In this document: piece after piece, positions 8,199 to 45,761 of the stretch
How positions within the stretch are numbered: the stretch's first letter is position 1
Layout: every line of letters begins with the position of its first letter
NCBI GenBank assembly: GCA_009786825.1
Contig: WQRI01000005.1
Coordinates: 1 to 48,800, forward strand
Origin: Bacillota bacterium
GTDB lineage: Bacteria > Bacillota > Clostridia > Christensenellales > WQRI01
Direction: 5' to 3'
Length of the DNA stretch: 48,800 bases
The notes under the pieces: model-generated
The model's input: only the letters and a program-made list of their open reading frames with translations
What the model was told of the DNA's origin: nothing
Databases searched by the model: none
Made by a program: the position numbers and the translations under genes

Positions 8199-8516
8199 TT
8201 ATTTTAATGGGTATATCCCCCTTTTGTACTTATCTTTTACCTGCTTTAAAATATCCCCATATGTGTTTTCTGTTTCTAATGTCCAATGAGTTGCCGTTTT
8301 TATAAACCACTCCTCGTTTTTAAATGTGCTTAATAAAGTCAACATTCCAGAATAGTCATCTTTTTTACCTGTGCCAAATACTACTAGCATATTGCCTTCT
8401 ATTTTGCACTTTAGATTTACTTCGCGCGCTTGCTCTGCTATACAATCAAACACACTTTGCATTGTAAAACCATAGCGGTCTACTGCACCCTTATCAAACT
8501 TAAATTCCATTCTCAT
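8199..8516 (-). CDS. Hypothetical protein, tandem paralog of 8513..8827
   Basis: Shares MRMEFKFDKGAVDRYGFTMQSVF and EGNMLVVFGTGKKDD with its neighbour; overlaps it by 4 nt (ATGA). Confidence 0.75.
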   Translation of the reverse strand: MRMEFKFDKGAVDRYGFTMQSVFDCIAEQAREVNLKCKIEGNMLVVFGTGKKDDYSGMLTLLSTFKNEEWFIKTATHWTLETENTYGDILKQVKDKYKRGIYPLK

Positions 8517-8827
8517 AGCGGTAATTCCCCCTGTCTGTATTTCTCTCTCACTTGTTTTAAAACATCTTCAAATGTGGTTTCCGTTTCAAATGTCCAATGA
8601 GTTGCTGTTTTTAAAAACCACTCTGAATGACTTAAATCGTGCATCAAACCTAGCATTCCAGATAAGTCATCTTTTTTACCCGTGCCAAATACTACTAGCA
8701 TATTGCCTTCTATTTTGAACTTTAGGTTTACTTCTCGTGCTTGCTCTGCTATGCACTCAAACACACTTTGCATTGTAAAACCATAGCGGTCTACTGCACC
8801 CTTATCAAACTTAAATTCCATTCTCAT
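8513..8827 (-). CDS. Hypothetical protein, tandem paralog of 8199..8516
   Basis: Near-identical N-terminus and central block to 8199..8516. Confidence 0.75.
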   Translation of the reverse strand: MRMEFKFDKGAVDRYGFTMQSVFECIAEQAREVNLKFKIEGNMLVVFGTGKKDDLSGMLGLMHDLSHSEWFLKTATHWTFETETTFEDVLKQVREKYRQGELPL

Positions 8828-8900
8828 AATAATAATTTTCTCCTTATTTAATTTCTGTTTTAATTGCGCCCGCTAGGCGAAGCACTTATTAGGGCAAAAG

Positions 8901-29984: not shown

Positions 29985-30719
29985 ATGTTAACTTCATTTT
30001 TTCGTTCAATTATAATATTTTTAATATTGCTAACAATAGTTAGGCTTATGGGCAAGCGCCAAATTGGCGAGATGCAACCTTTCGAACTTGTTATAACTAT
30101 TATACTAGCAGAACTAGCGGCAATACCTATGGCGGATAATTCTATCCCCATTTATTATGGTATAATTCCCGTGCTTGCTGTTTTTTTGTTGCACGTTGCG
30201 CTTACAAAACTTGGAAACCGCTCTATATTTATGTCGCGCCTTATAAGTGGCAACCCTATGATAGTTATAGACAGAGAGGGCATAAACATAAAAAATATGA
30301 ATGCTATGGATATGTCTTACAACGACTTAATAGAAAAACTAAGGGTTGCGGGGCATTTTGATGTTAGTGATATCGCGTACGCCATATTCGAGACAAATGG
30401 ACAACTGAGCATATTACCAAAAGACAAGCCACCAACACTTGCTGATATGAACGAATTAACATCTAAGCAAAAGCCCATAGATACGCCACCCCCTGCCCTA
30501 CCTGTTGTGCTAATATCAGAGGGCAAAATAAACAAAAGCAACTTAAAACTTACTTTAATAGATGAGTGTAAACTAAAAAGTATTCTAGCCTACAAGCAAG
30601 TAGACAGCATTAAAGATATTTATTTGCTAACACTAGACAACAACGGCAAAGTAACCTTGCAAACAAACACGGGCGAGTTTAAAACCTTTAACATAAATTA
30701 CTTTAGCGACAAATGGTAA
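29985..30719 (+). CDS. DUF421 (YetF-like) membrane protein
   Basis: LTIVRLMGKRQIGEMQPFELVITIILAELAAIPM characteristic of DUF421. Confidence 0.92.
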   Translation: MLTSFFRSIIIFLILLTIVRLMGKRQIGEMQPFELVITIILAELAAIPMADNSIPIYYGIIPVLAVFLLHVALTKLGNRSIFMSRLISGNPMIVIDREGINIKNMNAMDMSYNDLIEKLRVAGHFDVSDIAYAIFETNGQLSILPKDKPPTLADMNELTSKQKPIDTPPPALPVVLISEGKINKSNLKLTLIDECKLKSILAYKQVDSIKDIYLLTLDNNGKVTLQTNTGEFKTFNINYFSDKW

Positions 30720-30726
30720 TTTGTTA

Positions 30727-30884
30727 GTGTAAAATGTAAAGTGTAGAGTGTAAAGTGGTTTCACCGCTAGCGCGGGCAAGATTTTGTTTGCAAATTGTGT
30801 GTTGATACAAAATGCAGACTGTTCAAAAGTTTTTGTATTAAAGAAGTGTAGGCACTTTACACTTTACACTCTACACTTCACACT
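30727..30884 (+). repeat. Heptad-arm element, ACTTTAC arms (near-identical to 31325..31482)
   Basis: gtgtaaaatgtaaagtgtagagtgtaaagtggtttcaccgctagcgcgggcaagatttt... Confidence 0.95.
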
Positions 30885-30921
30885 AGTTTTAACTACTCTA
30901 CACTTTACACTAGGAGAGAAA

Positions 30922-31317
30922 ATGCGTAGAACAATTGCAGTTATAATAATAGCGTTTATATTAGGTGGTGGCATACTAGCAGAACACATTGGGCTAGTGC
31001 GCTTTTTAGATGGCTATATTGCTAATGCACAGACTTTGATGATTGAGCTTCAGCAATTAGAAGACGGCGATACACCACCACAAATATTAATAGACAAAGC
31101 AGAATATTTAGAGAAGCGATTTTTAAAAAGAAGCAAGGTTTTAGAAACGCTTGCTTCTCATATAGAACTTAAAGAAATTAAAGTGCATCTTGCGCAAATG
31201 CGCGCGGCACTATCTATGAATGCCATTAACGATGCCGTAATATTTACGTCCGCCGTAATAGCATTCTGCGCCCATATGCGCCACGCGCATACACCGCAAA
31301 TACAACACTTGTTTTAA
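30922..31317 (+). CDS. DUF4363-like protein
   Basis: MRRTIAVIIIAFILGGGILAEHI with AGGAGAG upstream; located after DUF421 as commonly seen; upstream part of ORF 30784.. is repeat-derived. Confidence 0.7.
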   Translation: MRRTIAVIIIAFILGGGILAEHIGLVRFLDGYIANAQTLMIELQQLEDGDTPPQILIDKAEYLEKRFLKRSKVLETLASHIELKEIKVHLAQMRAALSMNAINDAVIFTSAVIAFCAHMRHAHTPQIQHLF

Positions 31318-31324
31318 GTATGAA

Positions 31325-31482
31325 GTGTAAAATGTAAAGTGTAGAGTGTAAAGTGGTTTCACCGCTAGCGCGGGCAAGATTTTATTTGCAAATTGTGTGT
31401 GAATACAAAATGCAGACTGTTCAAAAGTTTTTGTATTAAAGAGTGTAGGCACTTTACACTTTACATTCTACACTTTACACTC
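31325..31482 (+). repeat. Heptad-arm element, ACTTTAC arms (near-identical to 30727..30884)
   Basis: Same left arm and core as 30727..30884 with a few substitutions. Confidence 0.95.
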
Positions 31483-31491
31483 TCTCAACTT

Positions 31492-32676: not shown

Positions 32677-32682
32677 AACTTT

Positions 32683-32847
32683 TAAAATTGTAAATTTTTA
32701 ATGTTAAATGTTAAATGGTTAAAATCGTTAATGCAAAAACTTTTGAACAGTCTGCATTTTGTAACTGTACGCAATTTGCAAAACATAATATTGCCCGCGC
32801 TAGCGGTGCAACCATTTAACATTTAAAATTTAACATTTAACATTAAT
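32683..32847 (-). repeat. Heptad-arm element, AATGTTA arms
   Basis: aatgttaaatgttaaatgg...cttttgaacagtctgcattttg...gcccgcgctagcggtgcaaccatttaacatttaaaatttaacatttaacatt. Confidence 0.93.
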
Positions 32848-32892
32848 AATTATAGCATATTTTGCGAAATTTGTAAAGCATTTTTTTTCAGC

Positions 32893-37940: not shown

Positions 37941-38115
37941 CGATGTAAAATGTAACTTTTAGAGTGTAAAATGTAAAGTGTAAAGTGTAGAGTGGTTTCA
38001 CCGCTAGCGCGGGCAAGATTTTTTTTGTGTGTGAATACAAAATGCAGACTGTTCAAAAGCTTTTGCATTTAAAGAATATAGTCACTTTACAATTTACACT
38101 CTACACTTTAAAATT
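37941..38115 (+). repeat. Heptad-arm element, ACTTTAC arms
   Basis: gtgtaaaatgtaaagtgtaaagtgtagagtggtttcaccgctagcgcgggcaagatttt...gcagactgttcaaaag...cactttacaatttacactctacacttt. Confidence 0.93.
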
Positions 38116-43590: not shown

Positions 43591-43626
43591 AAAAAAAGAG
43601 GCTGTCGCAAACCAGCCTCTTTTTTT
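43591..43626 (+). terminator. Rho-independent terminator
   Basis: aaaaaaagaggctg - tcgcaaac - cagcctcttttttt. Confidence 0.92.
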
Positions 43627-43811
43627 AATGTAAAGTGTAAAATGTAGAGTGTAAAGTGTTGTAACTCATTAAATAAATTCACTTTTGAACAGCCTGCAAT
43701 TAGCACTTATACAAATTTGCTAGTAAATATTTCCCGCGCTAGCGGGTGTAGCCACTTTACACTTTACACTCTACACTAACTCAACTCTCAACTCTACACT
43801 CTCAACTCACT
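43627..43811 (-). repeat. Heptad-arm element, ACTTTAC arms running into an AACTCTC-type heptad array
   Basis: aatgtaaagtgtaaaatgtagagtgtaaagtg...cttttgaacagcctgca...cccgcgctagcggg...cactttacactttacactctacactaactcaactctcaactctacactctcaactcac. Confidence 0.92.
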
Positions 43812-45551
43812 AAACTCTGTACTTAGCCACTCTCGCCTGTTACGTAAAAAGTTTAGCAAAAATTCTACTTGCCCGCTAAAAGTGTCTATTTGTTGAATGC
43901 TTGAGGGGACTGCCCACATCTGCGTGCCTAAAATATCCCAACGCTTGAAGTTTCTCTCAAAGTCTTGCTTGTAGGTTGTGCTTAGATACTCTATTAGTTG
44001 TAGCGTATGCTCTAGGTGGCTGTCTTTTACTTCTGACCACCTTTGGTTTAGTAAGTCTACAAATTGCGGTACGCGAATTAAGTCTCTGAACCACACGTGA
44101 TGTGTCGCCCAAAGCCCCCTATAACTTGTAGCACTTTGCCTTACGCAACTACCGCCAATAAATACGCAATAGTCTGCAACCCTATCTTTATTGCCAGCCG
44201 CAACATCAAAATCCCAAATATGCCCAAGCACTAACCTTTTGTTGCCCGCTTCAGCACTACCCGCTGAATGCTGTCCGCTGTTCCCTGAACGCTGTAGCGC
44301 TTCAGCGCTACTCGCTGTTCGCTGAACGCTGTTCCCTGCAGCGCCGTGCGTAGCAACGCGCGGCGCTGCTATATTCATAAACACACTTGCGCCGAATACA
44401 TCAAAGTTTTTATACCACTCTTGCACTATATAAAAATCTATAAACGAGCCTACATCTATAACATTATTAATTGCGTCCCAATCCCTTGTGGCTATAACAT
44501 CGTGCACGTTTTGCAAAAAGTCGCGCGCGTACTCTTTATGCGCGCGCGTAAGGCGCGACCCGCTCGGGTACCTAATCTCGTACGCTCGCATTCTAAGCGA
44601 GCCATTTGTGTTTTGTTGTGGCTCACCGCGAGTATTGCGCGGGTTAACCAAAATGTAGTCTTCCCACTCTATATAGCCGTTTGTGGCTCTGTTGTCGTGC
44701 GCGCGCGTGTTAAGTTCTATATAATACTCAGATAAAGTCGGGTCTGCGTTAAACTGTGCTTGCACGCGCCCGGGCGCAACTTCTCTATGCTCGGCAAGCA
44801 TATAAATGCCCATATAGTTTCCGTTTACGTAAACGTGCATATGGCGCGCCTTTGTTGTCCACGCTTGATACTCTAACAGCCCGCCCAAAAAGTACGCCGA
44901 GTAGTTTCGTAAAAGACTTAAGTCTTGGTAATTTGCAATAAAAAGCCAATCTCTGTAAACGTTGCCGTTCCCAACCCCTAGCATATCTCTTGCTTGTGCA
45001 AACCTTATTCTAAAAGGCTTTTTGCCGTAGCGCTCGCCCTGCCACCACGAAGAATTTCCGCGCCCTCTAATCTGCCCCAAAGCACCCTCAAAGTTATGTC
45101 CCTCGTGCGCGCCCTTAACAGAAAAACTTATGCCACCTTGCCAATCTCTTGTAACAAAATCTAGATGCCCATTCTCACGGCTTGCATTAGGGTTTGTAGT
45201 AATGTTATTCGGCACATCTATATGAAGCGAAGCAAACGCATTAAAGTGCTTGTAGCGCGAAGCAGGATTCCAAGCGTCGTCGTTGTCGTTATTGTTGTCA
45301 TCACCCTTGTTATCGTAGCCCCCATCACTATCTTTATCGCTTCCACTACCGCTATCGTTATCGTTGTCGCTACTACCACTTCCACTACCGCTATCATTAT
45401 CTTTGTCACTACCGCTTCCGCCCGTACCGCCGTTCTCTGTGCTTCCATTCTGATAGCCATTATCACCACTACCATTGTCGTTAGCCAAACACGCAACTAA
45501 CGAAAAAGCAACAACCAAAATCAACAAACTTGCTAATAACTTTTTTTTCAT
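43794..45551 (-). CDS. CotH-kinase-family lipoprotein
   Basis: Lipobox VACLA, Ser/Gly/Asp linker, RGRGNSSWWQGERYGKKPFRIRF, GHIWDFDVAAGN. Confidence 0.92.
   Translation of the reverse strand: MKKKLLASLLILVVAFSLVACLANDNGSGDNGYQNGSTENGGTGGSGSDKDNDSGSGSGSSDNDNDSGSGSDKDSDGGYDNKGDDNNNDNDDAWNPASRYKHFNAFASLHIDVPNNITTNPNASRENGHLDFVTRDWQGGISFSVKGAHEGHNFEGALGQIRGRGNSSWWQGERYGKKPFRIRFAQARDMLGVGNGNVYRDWLFIANYQDLSLLRNYSAYFLGGLLEYQAWTTKARHMHVYVNGNYMGIYMLAEHREVAPGRVQAQFNADPTLSEYYIELNTRAHDNRATNGYIEWEDYILVNPRNTRGEPQQNTNGSLRMRAYEIRYPSGSRLTRAHKEYARDFLQNVHDVIATRDWDAINNVIDVGSFIDFYIVQEWYKNFDVFGASVFMNIAAPRVATHGAAGNSVQRTASSAEALQRSGNSGQHSAGSAEAGNKRLVLGHIWDFDVAAGNKDRVADYCVFIGGSCVRQSATSYRGLWATHHVWFRDLIRVPQFVDLLNQRWSEVKDSHLEHTLQLIEYLSTTYKQDFERNFKRWDILGTQMWAVPSSIQQIDTFSGQVEFLLNFLRNRREWLSTEFSELRV
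44246..44368. repeat. GC-rich heptad (NNCGCTG) array plus 13-bp hairpin inside the CotH-kinase gene
   Basis: ...TCCGCTG TTCCCTG AACGCTG TAGCGCTTCAGCGCTA CTCGCTG TTCGCTG AACGCTG TTCCCTG; hairpin CAGCGCCGTGCGT-AGCA-ACGCGCGGCGCTG at 44339-44368. Confidence 0.85.
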
Positions 45552-45567
45552 ATATACCTCTTTTTTT

Positions 45568-45726
45568 AATGTTAAATGTTAAATGGTGAATGTTAAATGT
45601 TTAAACTCATAAAGGCAATGACTTACGAACAGTCAGAGTTTTCAACTCTCTACATTTTGCAAAATGTAATATTGCCGCGCTAGCGGTGCAACCATTTAAC
45701 ACTTAAAATTTAACATTTAACATTTT
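45568..45726 (-). repeat. Heptad-arm element, AATGTTA arms
   Basis: aatgttaaatgttaaatggtgaatgttaaatg...acgaacagtcagag...ttgccgcgctagcggtgcaaccatttaacacttaaaatttaacatttaacatt. Confidence 0.9.
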
Positions 45727-45729
45727 AAG

Positions 45730-45761
45730 CAAAAGCACCTTAATACGCTAAGGTGCTTTTG
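45730..45761. terminator. Terminator-like hairpin downstream of the collagen-like lipoprotein
   Basis: caaaagcacctta / taaggtgcttttg. Confidence 0.75.

Follow-up and report, generated by a model that had tools for sequence, protein, structure and literature searches.

The gene for a CotH-kinase-domain, lipoprotein-like protein of 585 amino acids occupied positions 43794..45551 on the reverse strand of the window, the whole 48,800-nucleotide stretch of DNA that was analysed. Residues 161-576 matched Pfam family PF08757 (E=2.6e-33) with 116 bits against a cut-off of 23.8, which places the product in the CotH kinase family, and no other CotH gene was found in the genome. Inside this domain lay a GC-rich array of period 7 that included a 16-bp palindrome and, at one end, a strong hairpin (44245-44369). 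Read along the coding strand, the order was hairpin, four heptads, palindrome, five heptads, and a decayed copy of the palindrome. The hairpin (44339..44368) had 13-bp arms with one T:G mismatch and a 4-nt loop (14-nt arms at 93% by repeat detection). Heptad block 1 (44311..44338, reverse strand; CAGGGAA, CAGCGTT, CAGCGAA, CAGCGAG in coding sense) was separated from heptad block 2 (44260..44294, reverse strand; CAGCGTT, CAGGGAA, CAGCGGA, CAGCATT, CAGCGGG) by the palindrome TAGCGCTTCAGCGCTA (44295..44310), a stem with a TTCA loop. The decayed copy of the palindrome, TAGTGCTGAAGCGGG (44245..44259, reverse strand), was part, with block 2, of a direct repeat spaced by 51 bp, in which a 41-bp block recurred with 83% identity (44247-44287 and 44298-44338). 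No two neighbouring heptads in the array were identical.

The period-7 signal was well above chance, as identity at lag 7 across 44246-44340 was 0.49, compared with 0.27 +/- 0.05 after shuffling, and none of 2000 dinucleotide shuffles reached it. The array, palindrome and hairpin had been described in an earlier sequence-only reading, and its letters, positions and period all proved correct. GC content was 65% in the segment, 46% in the CotH gene and 40% in the window. The segment folded better than its shuffles (z of -4.6 as RNA and -6.0 as DNA), chiefly owing to the hairpin and the palindrome. An Rfam scan of the window and searches of phage and plasmid collections gave no match, and a BLAST search of the genome found no second copy of the hairpin, the matches ending short of it.

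A search of the CotH protein against PDB sequences returned no match, and homologues were therefore taken from related genomes (L045 and L049). Alignment with these CotH proteins defined an expanded loop, IAAPRVATHG...AGNKR (I394-R439; 44235..44372, reverse strand), of 46 residues in place of a 6-residue turn, a net insert of about 40 amino acids. At this place CotH proteins of other genomes in the order had YFYRDARGKLCIGPVWDYN or YFYKKPGGKLTMGPVWDFD, and the protein studied here had FMN-(46 residues)-LVLGHIWDFD, with the conserved GHIWDFD motif (44205..44225, reverse strand) immediately past the insert. The proposal that the array is an in-frame insertion within the CotH domain was thus borne out, the extra segment being absent from CotH homologues. 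The extra residues ahead of GHIWDFD were real, though not exactly the 38 that had been quoted, and the peptide given for them left out the first, hairpin-encoded residues.

The genome search that the sequence-only reading had suggested was productive: BLAST with the CotH segment gave 48 matches, the strict pattern CAGSGNNCAGSGNNCAGSGNNCAGSG occurred 28 times, and the degenerate heptad CAG[C/G]G plus two free bases was present at dozens of sites, about 40 of them beyond CotH. Stretches around the matches were sampled (about 312 kb including the window), and, as this sample is enriched for GC arrays, the rates within it are not genome-wide. It held 143 arrays at lag 7, compared with 0-3 at each other lag from 4 to 11. 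When GC-rich lag-7 arrays in these stretches were detected without any consensus, 41 of 47 fitted CAGCG; the A and the two G positions of the heptad were the most constant and the last two bases the least. Twenty of the 29 distinct arrays that the pattern picked out in these stretches lay in sense orientation within ORFs, one was antisense (the L030 array) and eight fell between genes. Counted by gene, with MetK added, 15 were sense and one antisense; in two-armed inserts (see below) the sense bias follows from the order of the arms, and its independent support comes from about eight one-armed cases against one. In-frame arrays were present in at least 15 ORFs, that is, CotH and at least 14 others, several of them near-universal housekeeping genes. 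The hosts included TsaD, DnaX, MnmA, FolD, MetK, an ABC transporter, an AAA protein, a reverse transcriptase, a DUF1385/methyltransferase fusion, DUF1538 and a few unassigned ORFs, among which no common pathway was apparent. These observations point to a dispersed repeat family that would be spreading through coding DNA with the reading frame kept.

In three of the housekeeping enzymes, alignment to solved structures placed the inserts at short turns of the homologues: residues 123-163 of MetK (41 aa, 4-6 in homologues), 223-278 of TsaD (56 aa, 5 in homologues) and 242-274 of FolD (33 aa, 0-6 in homologues). Two forms were recognized. CotH, FolD and MnmA carried sense heptads only, and TsaD, MetK, DnaX, the ABC transporter, DUF1385 and DUF1538 carried the complete, two-armed form, which consists of a sense array, a short core and a second set of heptads in opposite orientation. 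The TsaD and MetK inserts aligned over about 118 bp with 79% identity (E=7.7e-23) and had a peptide core, SSKxTxKTHRSSLNA, in common and in one frame; DnaX carried a similar core. This similarity and the shared core show that the two-armed form was copied between genes. The CotH array is of the one-armed form and is without the core of the TsaD and MetK inserts, and it may have arisen by copying as well, as the similarity of its heptads suggests. Besides its heptad insert, MnmA (L038:5027-6340) had a repetitive N-terminal extension, KIDKTDKVDKANKVDKANK, absent in solved homologues. Only two reverse transcriptases were found in the genome, and one of them (L026:4149-5564; G000 C10) itself contained a 48-bp in-frame repeat three times over, every copy combining a heptad run with the palindrome GAGCAACTTGTTGCTC.

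A separate, AT-rich family surrounded the CotH gene. This intergenic element, of about 170 bp, carried the conserved core CCGCTAGCGCGGG...ACTGTTCAAAAG besides its inverted heptad arms and was present in at least 16 copies in the window. A profile built from 16 window copies (nhmmer) placed one copy downstream of the CotH gene (43618..43778, reverse strand, E=8.9e-35) and one upstream (45557..45735, reverse strand, E=8.1e-39); others lay at 30718-30885, 31316-31484, 32679-32852 and 37954-38114, and dozens more were found in the 312 kb. The same profile had no match to the CotH segment, which rules out that the CotH array is a copy of the AT-rich element. A one-copy query gave no BLAST match in 60 related genomes, and Rfam held no match to the element. 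The two kinds of array nevertheless had a cyclic tetramer, A-R-Y-G (C-R-Y-T on the other strand), in common. It was present in 90 of 119 AT arrays, with 22 +/- 4 expected from permuted letters, although AT arms are related copies and these trials are not independent, and in 21 of 25 GC arrays, with 6.6 +/- 2.3 expected. Neighbouring arrays of opposite orientation also converged in one and the same order in both kinds (13 of 13 AT, 6 of 6 GC). The shared skeleton and the shared convergent order make a common process or a common ancestry of the AT-rich and GC-rich arrays likely, so that the idea of a common generating process acting on different seeds was partly supported as to the common process. 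At 1170-1209 of the window, a GC-rich 14-bp repeat, CGCGAAGCGCTAGC, adjoined an AT-rich heptad run and may represent a transitional form linking the two kinds of repeat. Elsewhere in the window (8216-8828), a 311-bp tandem duplication with 86% identity was noted.

The units themselves bear on whether the repeat is a phase-variable contingency locus, in which gain or loss of 7-bp units would shift the frame and toggle CotH. Slippage in a surface-protein-like gene would have that effect, and perfect CAGCGAA arrays stand at gene starts in other phyla, for example in Synergistaceae. In this genome, however, the same two free bases recurred in only 24-29% of adjacent pairs, compared with 18-19% after shuffling, which leaves few slippage-prone perfect runs; the CAGCGAA arrays of other phyla, which had been picked by a pattern favouring CAGCGAA, were near-perfect (83%). 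Whole-unit identity between neighbours was 15-21%, against 78% in those CAGCGAA arrays. Since neighbouring units hardly exceeded shuffled ones in likeness and 41 of 47 GC arrays fitted one consensus, the arrays did not grow locally from separate seeds, and the second part of the earlier idea, different seeds, was not supported. This pattern argues against recent slippage or phase switching. The arrays draw their units from a genome-wide pool, which fits recombination or conversion among dispersed arrays, or very old, constrained arrays, rather than fresh slippage. An origin from such a pool weakens phase variation, and so do the arrays inside MetK, TsaD and FolD, where frameshifts would be harmful, and the CotH array with its lack of identical neighbours; we consider phase variation of CotH very unlikely.

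A functional DNA or RNA element, whether a regular set of ARYG or CAGCG sites or an RNA stem, that serves binding or processing and falls in genes by chance would account for the A, G and G conserved in every unit beside freer neighbours, for the skeleton shared with the AT-rich arms, and for the segments that fold strongly, those in CotH, the ABC transporter, DUF1538 and the reverse transcriptase (z of -3.9 to -5.2). The FolD (z +1.4) and DnaX (z +0.2) segments, on the other hand, folded no better than shuffles, and the empty Rfam scan and the scatter of host genes over pathways also speak against such an element, which we judge unlikely. That the insert is an adaptive part of CotH, a hydrophilic linker under selection close to the active-site motif, fits its position just ahead of GHIWDFD; the same peptide family, however, occurred in unrelated enzymes at the short turns of their homologues and was absent from other CotH proteins, which makes selection for a role in CotH scarcely credible. 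The two-armed, inverted architecture and the near-copies in different genes recall a true transposable element, MITE or REP-like, mobilized by a transposase acting in trans. Its length and boundaries were variable, however, its arms were degenerate arrays rather than fixed terminal repeats, and a search with PF01797 found no Y1/REP transposase in the 86%-complete assembly, so that this origin appears highly improbable.

The reading we favour, and regard as probable, is that the CotH segment is a one-armed member of the genome-wide GC-rich heptad family and a tolerated, selfish in-frame insert. The main heptad is free of stop codons in all sense frames and encodes a hydrophilic cycle, Q-R-T-A-N-S-E, with variants; being stop-free and hydrophilic in every frame, it can enter coding DNA and survive in a tolerant loop. 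Stops do occur in AT-rich versions, for example TTAAATG, and within the window such versions were intergenic. The CotH array is an in-frame insertion at a turn of the kinase domain, a loop that the fold presumably tolerates. Spread of the family may have proceeded by duplicative copying together with recombination or template switching between dispersed arrays, with selection presumably retaining only inserts that keep the frame open and the loop soluble, and the insert would have no special function for the host protein.

Heptameric repeats are known from other bacteria, including GGGAATC in Xanthomonas and GGGGA(C/T)T in Nostoc, with intragenic and inverted cases (PMC4692102), heptamers of Calothrix, as cited in that paper, and TAACTGA in Beggiatoaceae (PMC4679880). 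The arrays described here resemble them in their tandem 7-nt units, which are dispersed, numerous, at times arranged as inverted pairs, and sporadic across phyla. The known heptamers, by comparison, are mostly intergenic (7-11% intragenic in Xanthomonas, more in Nostoc) and have near-identical units (PMC4692102), whereas the GC arrays here lay mostly in sense within ORFs, had neighbouring units that were not near-identical and varied mainly at two positions, and extended conserved enzymes in frame. Repeated in-frame inserts are known as Rickettsia palindromic elements (Ogata et al. 2000, summarised in PMC10969869), described in that summary as families of consensus units of about 150 bp, with no mention there of heptad periodicity. 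As with those elements, so far as the summary describes them, palindromic or inverted sequences occurred here in frame in unrelated genes, encoding similar peptides; MetK, TsaD, FolD and CotH all had inserts that their homologues are without. A conserved peptide core was common to TsaD, MetK and DnaX, and the CotH insert shared the heptads only. In contrast to the Rickettsia elements as summarised, length and core varied here, CotH was without a core, and the two lineages are unrelated. Transposase-driven MITEs and REPs are likewise short, multi-copy repeats with inverted symmetry, and the arrays differ from them in that fixed ends were not seen and a Y1 transposase was not found in the genome.

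Nothing matching heptamer inserts in frame in conserved genes was found in the open-access library searched. Heptamers have been noted to be over-represented in bacteria and, according to one source, are without a detailed dedicated literature (PMC4692102). In this genome they appear as in-frame inserts of near-universal enzymes, stop-free in any sense frame, and offer a concrete system in which to study the origin and spread of 7-bp arrays and the amount of unstructured peptide that conserved proteins can accommodate. They also serve as a warning that such insertions in proteins from MAGs are not necessarily errors.

Strong CAGNG arrays were present in 6 of 297 genomes of the order, and three of the six, from two other families, had in-frame heptad inserts. 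Alignment located such inserts in DeoB, GlmM and PflA of these genomes, the PflA insert spanning 79 aa at a site with 6 in the E. coli enzyme, and inspection located them in TilS, AddB-like and ECF-transporter-like proteins. The habit recurs sporadically rather than by simple descent. It is conceivable, though we hold it doubtful, that a heptad-armed family, built on a genome-wide A-R-Y-G word rather than on a fixed sequence, propagates itself without a transposase, with an AT form between genes and a stop-free GC form in coding DNA, and that it has extended core enzymes in several lineages of one order, each time independently. In one genome from another family of the order (G206; L270:1311-2237, L256, L263), PflA and AddB-like proteins had all or part of one long in-frame insert, NSEFRIQNEGKESAHSAQRTAHNEG, in common, built from several different heptads. 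Outside the order, CAGCGAA arrays were found, among the matches listed, in Ignavibacteria, Bacteroidota, Synergistaceae, Cyanobacteria, Streptomyces and others. In Synergistaceae MAGs from goat rumen and reticulum (L111, L133, L145, L148, L177), perfect CAGCGAA arrays stood directly after a promoter-like TTGACA-17-TATAAT/TACAAT and ahead of glycosyltransferase-like ORFs, a possible heptamer phase-variation family.
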